Origin: Paenibacillus sp. VTT E-133291
GTDB taxonomy: Bacteria > Bacillota > Bacilli > Paenibacillales > Paenibacillaceae
DNA: 64,000 nt
Assembly: GCF_002264395.1 (NCBI RefSeq)
Contig: NZ_NFVA01000001.1
Location: forward strand, 1 to 64,000
Direction: 5' to 3'
The translations under genes were made by a program, and so were the position numbers. This document shows, piece by piece, positions 5,639-56,278 of this stretch (position 1 is the stretch's first letter; each line of letters opens with the position of its first letter). The notes under the pieces were generated by a model. The model was not told the DNA's origin, did not search any database, and saw nothing but the letters and a program-made list of their open reading frames with translations.

Positions 5639-7380
5639 ATGCTGAAGTCTGACATATCTAATTTTGTAATAATACTCATGAGAATGGTTAAAAAAAGTCC
5701 GATGACCTCAACGATCACTATCATAGTCCCTATAATCAGTGGATTATTAACTTTTTATTCTTACGCTGTCCAAGTGAATATCATCAACGGTGTGGCTCGC
5801 GGTGTTATGACCCTGCTCCCTATTCTATGGTTTGTTGTGATTCATGGCGTACAAGCTTGTTCATTAAGCATAACCAACATGATGAAGAATCGAATGAATG
5901 CGGAACTAACCCTAGCTTTTCAATCCGAATTGATAGATATTGCAAACCGGGTTGATTTTGAGGATTTTGATGATGAAGAGTTTGGAAATAAACTGCAAAG
6001 AGCTAAAAAGGTAGTTGGAGAAGATTTAGAGGGATTACAGGTTTTTTGGTATCGAGTGTAGGAATTATCTCAGGATTAATAAGCATCATCTGGTTGTCGG
6101 CGACAAGTGGTTATTTCTTGGTCACATTCGTAGTAACACTAATGATCGTGACTACCTTATCCATTCGATTATTTACGGAAATTAAAGTGAGAAGAACAGG
6201 AAGAGAGCTCACCTTTGATGGAAGAATGGGTGACTATCTTGCTAACACTTTGGAAGACCCTAATGCGATTAGAGAAATGCGAATGTATAACTCCATCTCT
6301 TATTTTACAAATCTCTGGGCAATGATTATGAAGAAGCAGCATAATAAAAGATTTAGCGCCAGAAAATTCGAGATCAAAACAGGGATGGTCGTGGGTATGG
6401 TCCAGACGAGTGCTATCTTTGTAGTTCTAGTGTACCTGTTAAACAAAATGGGGGATTCTAATACAGTTACAATTGGAACAATTTCGGTGTTATTTCTAGC
6501 GCTGTTATCGAGTGGTGGTAAGATTATGAGTTTGACCTGGCCATTAAGCAAGCTTTACATCAGCAGTAGCAAATTATATGACTTAAATGAAGTACTTACA
6601 TATAAGAACAGGGATTTTCGCAAAAATAACATCAATAATTCAACTGATGCTATGCTCCCAATTAGCGTTTCAAATGTCTATTTTAAATACGCCAAATCGA
6701 ACAAGAATGTCTTATCTAACATCAATATGACCATAAAGCCAGGTGAGAAAATAGCCATCGTCGGTGAAAATGGAGCAGGGAAATCTACGTTGATTAAAAT
6801 GTTGTTAGCTCAATATAGACCAAGCTCCGGAACGATTTGCTGGAAGGGTCATTTAGAACCTCACGGAAAGGTGTCCGTCGTATTCCAGAATGCTGTAAAG
6901 TTTGAACTGACACTAAGAGAAAATATCCTATTGGGCGATGCGAATACACCTTCAGATGATGCTAAAATACTAAGGGTTCTAGAACAATGTGAGCTGATAG
7001 ATTTGCTCCATGAATTAGGCGGATTAGATGTGAATTTGGGGCAATTAGTAGAAGGAAGCAGGCAGCTATCAGGTGGACAATGGCAAAAGCTGGCGATTGC
7101 CCGCGCGTTATACAATGATGCGGAGCTTATAGTATTCGATGAACCTACTTCTGCGATTGACCCGAATGCCGAGATGGAGATCTATACGAAATTATTAGAA
7201 ATCTGCCAAGATAAAGCAGCTATTTTTATTTCACATCGCTTGGGTTGGGCGAAGAATGTTGATACGATCTATGTTATGTATCATGGAGAAATTGCTGAAG
7301 TAGGAGATCATCAAGACTTAGTACATCACAATGGGATTTATGCAAACATGTACGCTTTACAATCCTCTTGGTATAAGTAG
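5639..7380 (+). pseudogene. ABC transporter half-exporter 2, frameshifted at a T6 run
   Basis: One gene split over two frames. The first part runs from ATG 5639 (AAAGGAG at 5626-5632) to a stop at 6059-6061. The rest continues in another frame from about 6046 to 7380. Adding one T to the T6 run at 6042-6047 restores a single frame of about 580 residues with a normal exporter membrane domain and an ATPase bearing Walker A 'GENGAGKST', signature 'LSGGQ' and Walker B 'LIVFDEPT'. The coding sense is intact on both sides, so the lesion is recent, a sequence error, or a slippage switch. Partner of the preceding half-exporter. Confidence 0.8.
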
Positions 7381-7424
7381 CTTATTAGATGTGATTGCGG
7401 TTGATATAAGATGGCATATTCTCC

Positions 7425-8321
7425 TTAACTATACTCATGAGGTTTACTAAAAAAATCCACAACAAATTTCTGGAATTGTATAGCCGCTTGCGATAAAAAG
7501 TGTTTTCTGCTCCAGGCGATGCCAAAAGTGCGCTGACAAAACGGATCGGTTATTTTCAATTGAACGATTTCTGTGTTTTTACTTCTCCTGCTTAAGGCTA
7601 AAGGGAGAGTAAAGGTGATACCCAGCCCCATCTCAACTAAGGTTTGAACGGCACTTACTTCTTCGAGCTCGAAAGCAATTAGTGGTTCGAATCCAGCTTG
7701 ACGGCAAAATGCATCTGTAATTTCACGGAAATTAGATCTAGAAGACAAAGAAATGAAATTCTCACCTGCAGCTTCAATCAAAGAAATACTTTCGCGATTG
7801 GCAAAACGATGATTCTTCGGCACACTTAAACATAATTCCTCTTCTGCTAAGGTAAACCATTCGATGTCTGGTCCGGTAACAGGTGTCGAAGATATACAAA
7901 AATCAATCACTGCACTCTCCAGATCGTTTCTCATTTCTAATGCTGAGCCAAGCTGACGCTGAATGATCCGAACGTGCGGGTGAAGGGTAAGAAACTCTTT
8001 TAGTAAAGTGGGCAATACATACGGTAGTGTTACTGCTATAGATATTACTCCATGTTCAAGTCCGGCCATATCCGTGAGCTGATGCTGACCTTCATCCAGT
8101 TCCAGAAATGCTTGCTCCACACGACGAAGATATATTTTTCCGAATTCGTTCAATTTTAAATTTCTGCCTTGGCGTTCAAATAAGGGAACACCTAAGCTTT
8201 TCTCCAAACGTTGGATGGAATTGCTAAGTGAGGGTTGAGATACATTTAATTCTTTGGCGGCATTAGTCATGTGCTCAAGACGAGCAACTACACGGAAATA
8301 TTGAAGCTGAAGGAATTCCAT
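7425..8321 (-). CDS. LysR-family transcriptional regulator
   Basis: A 298-residue regulator with an N-terminal winged helix-turn-helix ('AAKELNVSQPSLSNSIQRLEKSLG' region, residues about 20-45) and a C-terminal periplasmic-binding-protein-like effector domain (about 90-290). It is divergent from the MFS transporter gene, the usual arrangement for a LysR regulator and its target. A perfect 7-6-7 inverted repeat in the shared intergenic region (8352-8371) is the likely operator. The ligand is unknown. Standard length for the family. Confidence 0.9.
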   Translation of the reverse strand: MEFLQLQYFRVVARLEHMTNAAKELNVSQPSLSNSIQRLEKSLGVPLFERQGRNLKLNEFGKIYLRRVEQAFLELDEGQHQLTDMAGLEHGVISIAVTLPYVLPTLLKEFLTLHPHVRIIQRQLGSALEMRNDLESAVIDFCISSTPVTGPDIEWFTLAEEELCLSVPKNHRFANRESISLIEAAGENFISLSSRSNFREITDAFCRQAGFEPLIAFELEEVSAVQTLVEMGLGITFTLPLALSRRSKNTEIVQLKITDPFCQRTFGIAWSRKHFLSQAAIQFQKFVVDFFSKPHEYS

Positions 8322-8351
8322 AACATTGACCTCTCTTTATTCATAACTCTA

Positions 8352-8371
8352 ATATGATATATCCATCATAT
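8352..8371. promoter_or_regulatory. Inverted repeat, likely LysR operator
   Basis: ATATGAT, six bases, ATCATAT: a perfect 7-6-7 dyad 10 bases upstream of the MFS promoter -35 box and about 30 bases from the LysR start codon. The position suits both activation of the transporter and autorepression. Confidence 0.55.
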
Positions 8372-8380
8372 AATATGTAT

Positions 8381-8409
8381 TTTACTTAATTAATTTTCGG
8401 TCCTATACT
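8381..8409 (+). promoter_or_regulatory. SigA-type promoter of the MFS gene
   Basis: TTTACT at 8381-8386, 17-base spacer, TATACT at 8404-8409. Both boxes are close to consensus and lie about 45 bases before the GTG start. Confidence 0.55.
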
Positions 8410-8454
8410 ATTGTAACATATAAAAAGATATAGGTAGGATGGAGAGAGTCTGCT

Positions 8455-9678
8455 GTGATTAGAGAGAAAATTTGGACCCGGAATTTTATTGTTGTTTGTT
8501 TGAGTAGTTTTTTTATGTTTCTGACCTTTTACATTCTGGCGACTGCATTCCCGTTATACGTGAAGGAAAGCTTGCACGGGAATCAGCAGCAAATGGGGTT
8601 AGCCATTACCATCTATGTCCTCGGAGGTGTATTGATCCGTCCTTTTTCAGGACAATGGGTTGATAAATTCGGTAAAAAGAAAATGGCGGTTATTGGGCTG
8701 GTCTTATTCCTACTCGCCTGTATAGGATACTTCGGAGCTAATGGAATTGTATTGTTTCTGGTGATTCGTTTCATTCACGGTATGAGTTATGCGGTTGCTT
8801 CGACAGCGACAAGTACAATAGCTTCCACACTAATCCCGTACTCACGCCAGGGTGAAGGCATCGGTTATTTTAGTATGTTTATGAGCATTGCGATGGTCAT
8901 TGGACCAGCTTTGGGTCTTTTTCTATGGAAAGATGAGAACATTCATGTATTGCTGTTAGGTGTATGTGTGATTGCTGCGCTTTCGCTGTTATTCACATTA
9001 GGCGTTCGTATGCCCAAAGAAGCGAAGGATACGGTTAAAGAGGCCATTAGGGAACCTGTGAAGATGCGAAAGGGTCTTCGCTGGAGTGATGTCATTGAAC
9101 CCAAAGCACTGCCCATCTCGCTTGTCGGATTTACGCTTGCGTTCTCCTATAGTTCTTTATCTGGTTTTATCGCTTCTTTTACAAAAGAAATTAACCAATC
9201 ACAGCTTACCGGTTATTTTTTTGTGGCCTTTGCGATTATGATTGTGCTGTTTCGACCGCTAATCGGTAAAGTATTCGATAAATATAATGAACATATTCTC
9301 ATTTATCCCGGAATTCTGATCTTTGCTGTAGGTCTGCTTAGCTTAAGTCAAGCTAAATCCGGATTCATGCTGATGTTCTCAGGCATCATTATGGGGGTTG
9401 GGTATGGCGCACTTATGCCATGCTTTCAGACGCTTGCACTAAAATTAGCCGATAAAGAACGTAGAGGAAGCGCAAATGGAACCTTTTTCTTGTTATTTGA
9501 TTTGGGGTATGGAGCGGGTTCTTATATTATGGGTGTAGTTGCTTCTTATACAGATTACCGTATGATGTACGAAGTTGCAGGGTTCGTGACGCTTATCTCA
9601 GTTGCTGTATACTATTTGCTTCATCACCTACCTCAATCTAAGCTTCGCGTTCAAAAATCTAAAGCTGACGTTGCATAA
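8455..9678 (+). CDS. MFS transporter
   Basis: A 407-residue major facilitator superfamily protein with twelve predicted hydrophobic segments, the conserved loop 2-3 motif 'GQWVDKFGKKK' (about residue 65) and a second-half counterpart 'GKVFDKYNEH'. Most similar in style to Bacillus YwoG/YfhI-type drug-efflux-like carriers. The substrate cannot be read from sequence. It starts at GTG with GGATGGAGAG just upstream. The divergent LysR gene is its probable regulator. Confidence 0.85.
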   Translation: MIREKIWTRNFIVVCLSSFFMFLTFYILATAFPLYVKESLHGNQQQMGLAITIYVLGGVLIRPFSGQWVDKFGKKKMAVIGLVLFLLACIGYFGANGIVLFLVIRFIHGMSYAVASTATSTIASTLIPYSRQGEGIGYFSMFMSIAMVIGPALGLFLWKDENIHVLLLGVCVIAALSLLFTLGVRMPKEAKDTVKEAIREPVKMRKGLRWSDVIEPKALPISLVGFTLAFSYSSLSGFIASFTKEINQSQLTGYFFVAFAIMIVLFRPLIGKVFDKYNEHILIYPGILIFAVGLLSLSQAKSGFMLMFSGIIMGVGYGALMPCFQTLALKLADKERRGSANGTFFLLFDLGYGAGSYIMGVVASYTDYRMMYEVAGFVTLISVAVYYLLHHLPQSKLRVQKSKADVA

Positions 9679-53744: not shown

Positions 53745-53854
53745 GTAACCGAAGAGCGTTTTGACCGTATTAACTGATGAACATTTCATTCAGGAAGAAA
53801 TTCTGATTTCCTAATGGGTCATGTTAACAAAAAGAGAAGTTGAGGTCATCACCT

Positions 53855-56239
53855 ATGAATGAAGAATTTACAGATCACGCGGATACAGCATACCCGAGCG
53901 CTGAGCGGAAGGCAGCTCAGTATTTTACATCTCTTCGTGAACAGTTCAAAGAAAAAACTTACGTGACTACCTTAACTGAAGATTTTCGGTTGTGGAAGAA
54001 GAATCACATTCATCGTCGTTCATGGTTGTCCTTTTTATCTAGAGGAAAAAGGAAACCTGATTCAAAGGATTACCATAGATATCTAGGATGGCTGAATCAA
54101 ACCGGTAAATTGGAAGATTATTTGGATCGAAGCGTTTCTTATCTTTATATGAGAGATCTGGGGCAAGCTTTGGATGCACCGAACACACAAATCCGAATTA
54201 AGCGTATGGTTGCCGACATTAGAAATCAGATGATTCATCCGGGTTCGTCCAATTCGGGGGATCAGTCAGATTTTATGAGTTTTACGGGGATTTATCGTTG
54301 GGCTCAGAAGGAAGGCGTTGAAACTGCTACGATTTGGGTGATAGACAAACTTAAGCAGGTGTCAGCACATCTTCCGAAGGAAATGAATCCTGAGCAAGCG
54401 CAGCGCAAATTGATAAAGATCATCATAGGAGTAATTCTTCATGTGATGGAAGAGATGGATGATAAAGTATCGCCTGTGGAGCGTGCCGCAAGAATTGGTG
54501 AAGCAATTAGGCTTGGTTATTCGTATGGCTTAACTTATCCATTTATTGATGATCTTCTTGATTCCAGTGTCTTAACCGACCCTGAGAAAGAACAATATTC
54601 TCAAATGATACGCATGGCGATCCTTAATAGAGTTGTGCCGGAATTGGGTGAATGGTCCGGAGAGAATATACCGTTCCTTCGATTTGTACATTCGGAGCTC
54701 AAGGAGGCTTTTGAGTATATTAGGGGATATCAGCGGCCAGAAATGCAGAATACATTCTTCGAGCAGTCCTTTGTGTTTTTTCATTCCCAGGAGTTGGATC
54801 GTATGAAGAATCTATCTAACCCTGAATACAGTAATGAAGAACTTTTTATACCCATCATTTTAAAATCCTCTTCTTCCCGTTTAATTGTCCGATCCGTAAT
54901 TAGTGCTCCAACCGATGACGGATTTGATCAACGTACTTTCTTCTATGGGCTTTACAATCAGCTCGCGGATGATTTTGCGGATATGTTTGATGATATGGAA
55001 ATGGGAGCGGTAACTCCCTATACATATTATTTAAAATACCGTGGTCAACGTTCAGATCTGATCAACCCTTTTGAACTATACTGGACGGTCATCTCCCATT
55101 TAATACACACGGTGTATCAATCTGATCCTAAAACCCGTGAGGTCATATTAGATCGAGCCATCAATGGTCTCAAGCGCTGTAAAGAACGTGTAGGTATTGA
55201 AAAGTATAAAGAGATCATGGAGATCTTCGCTTCGGGTCAACCAGAATTTAATCGACTTGTACAGCAGTTGGTGCAGAAAGCGGACGATGTGGATTTTTTC
55301 GATAAACTACTTCGGGACCAGTTGCTTTTGAATTTAAAAAACAGTAAGAAGGAAAAAGTGGAGTTTCGAGAAACGATTCAAAAGGTCCGTGATCAAGTCA
55401 ATAACCAATTGCTGATATTCAAGCCAGACGAGACACCAGCCATGAAAGAACTGCTTATTGATGCGGCTAACTATAGTCTAGAAGGAGATGGCAAGCGCAT
55501 AAGGCCTATATTAACATGGGTCATGGGCGTTAACGAATATGGTCTTGATGAATCGGCAATTGTACCGCTTCTTCGATCTTTGGAATATATGCATACGGCT
55601 TCCCTAATCTTCGATGATCTTCCGTCCCAGGATAATGCCTCAACCCGAAGAGGTCGTGCAACGCTGCACGAAGTGTACAATAGCTCCACGGCGGAATTAA
55701 CCGGTCTGTTTTTGATTCAGAAGTCGATCGAGGAACAGGCGTCCCTTCATTCTTTTGATGCTAAAGCTGTGCTTGCCTTAATGCAATATTCAGCCCAAAA
55801 AGCAGGAGATACTTGTATGGGGCAGGCGATGGATTTGAATTCTAAGGGACAAACGCTGACACTAGAGCAATTAAATATGATTTGTTTCTATAAGACTGGA
55901 ATTGCCTTTGAAGCTTCACTAGTGATGCCAGCCATTCTTGCTCAGGTGCAGGGGTCAGAAATTCAGTGTCTGAAAAAATTTGCCTACCATGCGGGAATTG
56001 CTTTTCAGATTAAAGATGATTTGCTTGATTTGGAAGGGGATCATCATTTATTAGGCAAGCCGATCGGTCAGGATGTGGAGAATAACAATTCGACATTTGT
56101 ATCGATCCTTGGGGCAGATGGTGCGCGAAAAGAGATGTGGGAGCACTACTGTCTCGCCATGGAAGCATTGAAGGAGATTCCTCGTAATATTGCTTTTCTA
56201 AAGCATTTATTGAATTATATGATTAATCGAAATCGATAA
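53855..56239 (+). CDS. Tandem fusion of two prenyl-synthase-like domains
   Basis: A 794-residue cytoplasmic, all-helical protein. The C-terminal 310 residues are a clear trans-polyprenyl diphosphate synthase: first Asp-rich motif D587-D-L-P-S-Q-D593 followed by 'RRGRATLHE', and second motif 'QIKDDLLD' at 721-725. The N-terminal 480 residues are not obviously homologous but carry 'FIDDLLD' at 232-236 and 'QLADDFADMFDD' at 372-381. That spacing of 140 is close to the 134 of the C-terminal pair, and it argues for a second, divergent class I prenyltransferase/terpene-synthase fold. ATG 53855 after TTGAGGT. Product unknown. Confidence 0.75.
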   Translation: MNEEFTDHADTAYPSAERKAAQYFTSLREQFKEKTYVTTLTEDFRLWKKNHIHRRSWLSFLSRGKRKPDSKDYHRYLGWLNQTGKLEDYLDRSVSYLYMRDLGQALDAPNTQIRIKRMVADIRNQMIHPGSSNSGDQSDFMSFTGIYRWAQKEGVETATIWVIDKLKQVSAHLPKEMNPEQAQRKLIKIIIGVILHVMEEMDDKVSPVERAARIGEAIRLGYSYGLTYPFIDDLLDSSVLTDPEKEQYSQMIRMAILNRVVPELGEWSGENIPFLRFVHSELKEAFEYIRGYQRPEMQNTFFEQSFVFFHSQELDRMKNLSNPEYSNEELFIPIILKSSSSRLIVRSVISAPTDDGFDQRTFFYGLYNQLADDFADMFDDMEMGAVTPYTYYLKYRGQRSDLINPFELYWTVISHLIHTVYQSDPKTREVILDRAINGLKRCKERVGIEKYKEIMEIFASGQPEFNRLVQQLVQKADDVDFFDKLLRDQLLLNLKNSKKEKVEFRETIQKVRDQVNNQLLIFKPDETPAMKELLIDAANYSLEGDGKRIRPILTWVMGVNEYGLDESAIVPLLRSLEYMHTASLIFDDLPSQDNASTRRGRATLHEVYNSSTAELTGLFLIQKSIEEQASLHSFDAKAVLALMQYSAQKAGDTCMGQAMDLNSKGQTLTLEQLNMICFYKTGIAFEASLVMPAILAQVQGSEIQCLKKFAYHAGIAFQIKDDLLDLEGDHHLLGKPIGQDVENNNSTFVSILGADGARKEMWEHYCLAMEALKEIPRNIAFLKHLLNYMINRNR

Positions 56240-56248
56240 TTGATTATG

Positions 56249-56278
56249 AAGTGTTGGCTTGATTGCCAGCACTTTTTT
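56249..56278 (+). terminator. Terminator after the fusion gene
   Basis: AAGTGTTGGC at 56249-56258 pairs with GCCAGCACTT at 56265-56274, then T. Confidence 0.85.

Follow-up and report, generated by a model that had tools for sequence, protein, structure and literature searches.

A Paenibacillus gene joining a polyprenyl diphosphate synthase to an N-terminal domain of predicted class I isoprenoid synthase fold

What does a bacterial protein do with two pairs of Asp-rich motifs when only the second pair lies in a recognizable prenyl diphosphate synthase? The question is raised by a gene in the window, that is, in the whole 64,000-nucleotide stretch of Paenibacillus sp. VTT E-133291 analysed here (assembly GCF_002264395.1, contig NZ_NFVA01000001.1, positions 1 to 64,000). 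A first-pass annotation, made from the letters alone, had described it as a tandem prenyl-synthase fusion that could make a prenyl chain and use it in the same protein, or whose N-terminal copy could be regulatory. The first of these proposals is the reading we prefer, with a probability of roughly 0.55: motif comparison and structural models point to a bifunctional, assembly-line terpenoid enzyme in which the prenyl diphosphate made by the C-terminal domain is used by the N-terminal class I domain. The C-terminal domain would condense isopentenyl diphosphate (IPP) with dimethylallyl diphosphate (DMAPP) or longer allylic diphosphates into a short-chain prenyl diphosphate, most likely geranylgeranyl diphosphate (GGPP). 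This product would pass to the N-terminal domain, where the Asp-rich motifs would bind Mg2+ and ionize the diphosphate, and the reaction would yield a cyclized or otherwise rearranged terpene. We favour such a two-step enzyme because the protein carries Asp-rich motifs in two complete sets, IPP signatures only in its C-terminal half and a residue favouring C20 products, and because the fusion has been strongly retained. The computations establish the two-domain layout, the intact motifs of the synthase, the class I fold of the N-terminal model, and conservation with purifying selection in both halves, and the support for fold class and conservation is good; metal binding, the GGPP product, its transfer between domains and terpene synthase chemistry are inferred.

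The C-terminal polyprenyl diphosphate synthase

The gene is an uninterrupted open reading frame (ORF) on the forward strand, from an ATG at 53855 to 56239, and its translation has 794 amino acids (aa); an alternative TTG start at 53840 would add five residues. A sequencing artefact was set aside, since full-length relatives exist in many genomes. The C-terminal domain is, as had been proposed, a standard polyprenyl diphosphate synthase, matched by PF00348 over residues ~506–794 at 165.9 bits, where the cut-off is 27. The features of the gene and of this domain are as follows, with motif conservation counted over the 16 aligned rows that have letters at those positions.

53855..56239, forward strand: whole gene including the stop codon, two-domain class I isoprenoid enzyme (from the ORF and full-length relatives)
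55370..56236, forward strand: C-terminal polyprenyl diphosphate synthase domain, residues 506–794 (PF00348, E = 1.3e-48)
55490..55507, forward strand: GKRIRP, IPP-binding signature, residues 546–551 (K547, R548, R550 and P551 in 16/16)
55598..55600, forward strand: A582, five residues ahead of the Asp that opens the first motif, product-length position (Ala in 16/16)
55613..55633, forward strand: first C-terminal Asp-rich motif, DDLPSQD, residues 587–593 (D587, D588 and D593 in 16/16)
55646..55654, forward strand: RRG past the first motif, residues 598–600 (16/16)
55892..55897, forward strand: helix-F KT, residues 680–681 (16/16)
56015..56029, forward strand: second C-terminal Asp-rich motif, DDLLD, residues 721–725 (D721, D722 and D725 in 16/16)

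None of the NCBIfam models reaches its cut-off with this domain; the best is FPPsyn, named for farnesyl diphosphate (FPP), at 222 bits and under its cut-off of 275, and in the VIA-align structural comparison the domain ties between Sy-CrtE (Z 29.2) and the FPP synthase 1rqi (Z 29.1). The genome contains three other PF00348 genes, among them its own FPP synthase (locus L003), which scores 401 bits with FPPsyn, above the cut-off, and has a Tyr five residues before its first motif. Type II FPP synthases have an aromatic residue at this fifth position, and a Tyr-to-Ala change in the type I FPP synthase of a red yeast gave an enzyme making both FPP and GGPP (PMC11048977). In the fusion protein, position 582 is small and not aromatic. 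Because A582 stands where type II FPP synthases carry an aromatic residue, GGPP (C20) is the likely main product of the C-terminal domain.

Motifs and predicted fold of the N-terminal domain

The translated protein has DDxxD sites at residues 232 (DDLLD), 354 (DDGFD), 372 (DDFAD) and 721 (DDLLD) and a DDxxxxD site at 587 (DDLPSQD). The four positions given in the first-pass annotation (232, 372, 587 and 721) are correct, and so is its remark that the two pairs have nearly the same spacing (140 residues from 232 to 372, 134 from 587 to 721). Its list omitted the additional DDGFD at 354, which is unconserved and replaced by D-E-G-F in most aligned relatives. In 20,000 shuffles of the N-terminal 480 residues, at least two DDxxD sites occurred in ~1% and at least three, the number observed, in 0.035%; conservation makes the stronger case for regarding the N-terminal motifs as real. 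A class II cyclase was set aside, as the protein has no DxDD motif.

Conservation was assessed in 66 distinct N-terminal sequences of fusion proteins, forming 48 clusters at 90% identity and with a lowest identity to the window protein of 49%; this set leaves out L004, in which the gene of the window itself is cut short. All 66 are identical at R184, D232, D233, D236, K337, Q369, D372, D373, D376, D380 and T387. Three distant relatives, described further below, all keep R184, D232, D236, Q369, D372, D373, D376, D380 and T387.

53855..55324, forward strand: N-terminal domain, residues 1–490, with the predicted class I fold in ~92–489 (AlphaFold2 model, Foldseek, VIA-align)
54404..54406, forward strand: R184, invariant residue preceding the first motif (66/66 fusion sequences, 3/3 distant relatives)
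54548..54562, forward strand: first N-terminal Asp-rich motif, DDLLD, residues 232–236 (66/66; D-N-x-x-D in 3/3 distant relatives)
54863..54865, forward strand: K337 of KSSSSR (66/66 fusion sequences)
54968..54994, forward strand: second N-terminal Asp-rich motif, DDFADMFDD (DDxxDxxxD), residues 372–380 (66/66 fusion sequences, 3/3 distant relatives)
55283..55357, forward strand: low-confidence linker between the domains, residues 477–501 (predicted local distance difference test, pLDDT, below 50)

The second motif is followed by G-x-V-T-P, and K337 appears to be placed like the helix-F Lys of isoprenyl diphosphate synthases (IDS); the distant relatives have a Lys at the K337 column in one alignment and one column later in another. 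The C-terminal signatures GKxxRP, RRG and KT[GAS] are absent from residues 1–490 of the window protein, in which the two IPP-site signatures, GKxxRP and RRG, occur once each, both in the C-terminal domain. Among the 66 N-terminal sequences, stray matches to the three signatures were found in 1, 1 and 2, respectively, away from the expected places (those to GKxxRP and RRG at residue 63). Because these signatures are missing, the N-terminal half, judged by its sequence, does not amount to a mere duplicate of the synthase, and their absence would fit a domain that takes an allylic diphosphate but no IPP. Both halves are under purifying selection: in 6/6 pairs with close relatives, the ratio of nonsynonymous to synonymous substitution rates (dN/dS) was ~0.11–0.14 for the N-terminal part and ~0.06–0.08 for the C-terminal part.

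Searches with the N-terminal ~480–490 residues against Pfam, NCBIfam and PDB sequences returned chance-level matches only. PF00348 did not match this part at E 10, and the idea that it arose as an internal duplication of the C-terminal domain was provisionally set aside for lack of such a match. A PDB profile search with the N-terminal family gave three matches, none of them to an isoprenoid enzyme, the best (E 0.018) being a viral protein.

Structure prediction was more informative. The AlphaFold2 model of residues 1–490 (mean pLDDT 75.7, predicted TM-score, pTM, 0.75) is all helix, in agreement with the all-helical context first suggested for this region; the full-length model has a mean pLDDT of 70.0 and a pTM of 0.49. 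Foldseek was run against the PDB, and the best 50 of 626 matches, classed by title, are all isoprenoid synthases (47 prenyl and 3 terpene synthases). VIA-align realigns the Foldseek candidates, so the two comparisons are not independent; its 50 listed rows are again all isoprenoid synthases (44 terpene and 6 prenyl synthases), with the ent-kaurene synthase BjKS as best row (Z 15.0, rmsd, root mean square deviation, 4.2 over 249 residues). In our judgement a chance fold match is unlikely, because the rows are uniform in identity and because of the motif pattern. The N-terminal domain is thus predicted to have a class I isoprenoid synthase fold; the structure prediction and fold search proposed in the first-pass annotation as a check did not return an unrelated fold.

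A two-step terpenoid enzyme and its alternatives

Several observations weigh against a terpenoid enzyme of two steps. The N-terminal model was built on 17 alignment rows. Foldseek gives E 4.6e-4 at best, with just two matches at E ≤ 0.001; among the best 50 of 626, query-normalized TM-scores (template modelling scores) of 0.24–0.35 and rmsd values of 12–20 Å mean that the overall superposition is poor. The VIA-align Z values of 12.7–15 are close to the chance level of helical bundles (Z 13–14). As modelled, the fold chooses neither a cyclase nor a prenyl synthase, because Foldseek puts IDS enzymes first and VIA-align puts terpene synthases first. The N-terminal domain has no match among the terpene synthase families of Pfam and NCBIfam. 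Terpene synthases generally carry an Asn-Ser-Glu (NSE) triad where IDS have the second Asp-rich motif (PMC7484799). This triad ([ND]DxxSxxxE type) is absent from residues 1–490, which have DDxxDxxxD instead, and on sequence grounds the second N-terminal motif is of the IDS type; one of the 66 relatives has a stray NSE-type match at residue 2, and the three distant relatives contain neither the triad nor GKxxRP, RRG or KT[GAS]. Finally, no tailoring genes recur beside the fusion gene in 25 context loci. Class I terpene synthases are also found as lone genes.

IDS-type motifs are compatible with a terpene synthase, since among the IDS-like terpene synthases (ILTPS) of the fungus Melampsora one has its second Asp-rich motif in normal form (PMC7484799). 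Those proteins are closely homologous to GGPP synthases, unlike the N-terminal domain, which is distant from PF00348 and part of a fusion. Relative to the FPP and GGPP synthases of PF00348 themselves, the C-terminal domain is alike by sequence, motifs and fold, whereas the N-terminal domain shares the predicted fold class and two Asp-rich motifs at an IDS-like spacing, goes undetected by PF00348 and has no IPP-site signatures. The N-terminal model also matched the class I fold of (+)-delta-cadinene synthase (PDB 3g4d, Z 13.5 by VIA-align), an entry whose title mentions metal-binding motif divergence. This enzyme is a cyclase in which another Asp-rich motif takes the place of the NSE triad; it comes from a plant and is not known to be fused to a prenyl synthase.

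The closest known layout is that of the fungal prenyltransferase–terpene synthase chimeras (PTTS), in which an N-terminal terpene synthase precedes a C-terminal prenyltransferase and which a 2021 publication regarded as exclusive to fungi (PMC8307374). The first-pass annotation had thought a bacterial protein with this domain order unusual; the order itself is that of the fungal PTTS (PMC8307374), and it is its occurrence in bacteria that is unusual. The likeness lies in an N-terminal class I domain, here by predicted fold, and a C-terminal prenyltransferase in one polypeptide. The differences are the bacterial host and an N-terminal domain with two IDS-type Asp-rich motifs, no NSE triad and no terpene synthase match in Pfam or NCBIfam. 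PaFS, a fusicoccadiene synthase, has the same domain order with GGPP synthesis at the C-terminus; it retains the greater part of this GGPP for cyclization, an effect of proximity and not of a tunnel (PMC8190136). The linker is shorter in the window protein, with ~25 low-confidence residues against ~70 in PaFS (PMC8190136). In layout, the window protein is a variant of the fungal PTTS; its own N-terminal domain matches no Pfam or NCBIfam model.

Profile comparison was used to place the N-terminal family. Scores against IDS, squalene/phytoene synthases (SQS_PSY, PF00494) and DUF2600 (PF10776) were judged against 100 column-shuffled controls, with one profile for the fusion proteins and one for the standalone relatives. 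The IDS score was reached by 0/100 shuffles with either profile, and single-pair comparisons with IDS gave E values of 2e-4 to 3e-3 and hhalign probabilities of 10–45%. In one setting, hhalign aligned the second N-terminal motif and its G-x-V-T-P to the second IDS motif and G-x-x-T-L-P; with a column-trimmed profile, it was the first motif region that aligned to the second motif region of IDS. Kinship to IDS is weak and its register unsure, because the register shifts between settings and the hhalign probabilities are only 10–45%.

The alternative that survives best is that the N-terminal domain uses the chain but is no cyclase, transferring it to a small molecule, a lipid or a protein or joining two chains. 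Such a role would suit its two IDS-type Asp-rich motifs, the first place of IDS enzymes in the Foldseek listing and the finding that IDS is the only one of the three tested families to beat all 100 shuffled controls. However, SQS_PSY and other acceptor transferases gave no match in the Pfam and NCBIfam searches (for PF00494 and PF10776, no Pfam match to the N-terminal part at E 10), and the SQS_PSY profile score was reached by 29/100 shuffles with the fusion profile and 4/100 with the standalone profile. We regard this alternative as unlikely.

DUF2600, the family of large-terpene synthases, was considered as kin, but profile comparison lent this no support, although the motif contexts seemed alike by eye. 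Its score was reached by 100/100 shuffles with the fusion profile and 48/100 with the standalone profile, and hhalign gave an E value of 0.82 against the N-terminal family, in both cases with shallow profiles. What the two have in common is the class I fold (prene synthase 5yo8, which we take to be a PF10776 member, aligned by VIA-align at Z 12.7 over 294 residues); the differences are that DUF2600 is a separate gene and that no profile similarity was found. DUF2600 is present as a separate, conserved gene in 59/59 sampled genomes of the same family. A search for PF19086 in 119 genomes gave no match, but its control remained without a match too, so this negative carries no weight.

Less probable still is a role without catalysis, in which the N-terminal domain would serve the C-terminal synthase as partner or regulator, setting its chain length or binding its product in the way that small subunits do in heteromeric prenyl synthases. 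An inactive partner of the same fold is a known solution, and it is the C-terminal half that has recognized catalytic signatures. Inactive partners usually lose their Asp motifs, however, and here the seven motif Asp residues together with R184, K337, Q369 and T387 are invariant in 66/66 sequences; two complete relatives, moreover, have no synthase in the same frame. The regulatory copy allowed for in the first-pass annotation is weakened by the full conservation of the putative metal-binding motifs, but stays a rival. A tandem IDS, with the N-terminal domain as a further prenyl synthase that elongates chains, is very improbable because residues 1–490 lack GKxxRP, RRG and KT[GAS] and PF00348 stays silent there at E 10, even though the IDS-type second motif and G-x-V-T-P can be aligned to IDS by hhalign.

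The two-step terpenoid enzyme remains our preferred interpretation of the fusion protein, and the proposal that a chain is made and used in one protein stands as the best reading, with the statements on domain order and rarity corrected.

Distribution, relatives and gene surroundings

The N-terminal domain was searched for in genome samples at the levels of family, order, class and phylum, which overlap, so that the counts are not additive. Matches were found in 163/295 genomes of the same family, 116/246 of the order, 36/348 of the class (8 outside the order, in five families) and 11/398 of the phylum, the last including the three distant relatives and one fused copy outside the class (genome G541). 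The rarity of such a bacterial fusion implied in the first-pass annotation is contradicted by these numbers (163/295, 116/246 and 36/348). The open frame around the match measures at least 750 aa in 114 of the 116 order-level genomes, the exceptions being G341 (659 aa, remainder in another frame) and G244, where it is broken into two pieces; G162 has its initial ~60 residues in another frame. In the class sample, 36/36 matches lie in frames of at least 776 aa. Beyond the order the full-length frame is patchy: within the class it turns up in five further families, and outside the class in G541; this spread could reflect horizontal transfer or repeated loss. No relative was found in plasmid records at E 0.01.

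By BLAST, the whole protein is one ORF in 62 of the 66 loci checked. The four loci without a single whole ORF are L004, which is the cut window locus, L036, L054 and L066. In Aquibacillus albus (L066), the gene is split into 7001–8287 and 8296–9363 in different frames with almost no residue missing, and the break falls within the N-terminal domain, away from the border between the domains. The split probably stems from a recent frameshift or from an error in sequencing, rather than marking a natural two-gene form. In genome G212, a stretch at G212:C1:780202-780390, on a contig other than that of the intact copy, resembles N-terminal residues 2–66 and contains two TGA stops; it is perhaps the remnant of a lost second copy.

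The three distant relatives are proteins from other Bacillota lineages with open frames of 399–425 aa. Two were found by single-sequence search (E 1.9e-8 and 4.0e-5) and added to the profile, and the profile including them found the third (E 2.0e-27). Two of the three have 19% identity to the window protein. L055 and L084 are complete and their frames contain no synthase, while L054 is cut by a contig end. Narrow searches around the distant relatives gave matches in 2/15 and 1/13 genomes, all already known. Transposase-type genes (IS110, Mu-type) and a UPF0236 gene (10315–11490 in L083; 6641–8122 and 10205–11605 in L084) lie near the two complete standalone genes, and the standalone form may be mobile.

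Taken as a family, these proteins could represent a large group of bacterial assembly-line terpene synthases with an origin apart from the PTTS, in which a GGPP-type synthase stands behind an undescribed, IDS-related cyclase domain and leads to an unrecognized di- or sesterterpenoid. We hold this broader proposal more tentatively, at slightly less than even odds. If true, assembly-line terpene synthesis would have evolved more than once, and Paenibacillus and its relatives would make a terpenoid that has so far escaped recognition. No published study of such a bacterial protein was found by title and abstract in the open-licence literature, a search by which a report could be missed.

Of 15 named relatives fetched, 13 are from Paenibacillus, and the closest, from a Paenibacillus metagenome-assembled genome, has 92% identity over the entire protein. 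The fusion gene has no conserved neighbours: a single intact copy of it is common to 21 of the 25 context loci, whereas any other gene family is limited to 6 of them at most. Upstream, the gene adjoins one for a saccharopine-dehydrogenase-like NAD(P)-binding protein (PF03435, 52586–53689), which was matched in only one of the 25 context loci, that of a close relative (L056). Directly 3′ of the stop codon lies a hairpin resembling an intrinsic terminator; terminator-like sites number 4 in the region against 2.6 expected from shuffling.

56248..56275, forward strand: intrinsic terminator-like hairpin directly 3′ of the stop codon (11 pairs, T-rich tail)

At the other end of the gene, within ~53815–53860 of the window, the sequence AAAAGAGAAGTTGAGGT stands 5′ of the start codon and is identical in the window and 6/6 close relatives. 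A second sequence near the start, AGGTCATCACCT, is identical in the window and 5/6 close relatives and has the potential for self-pairing around the ribosome-binding site.

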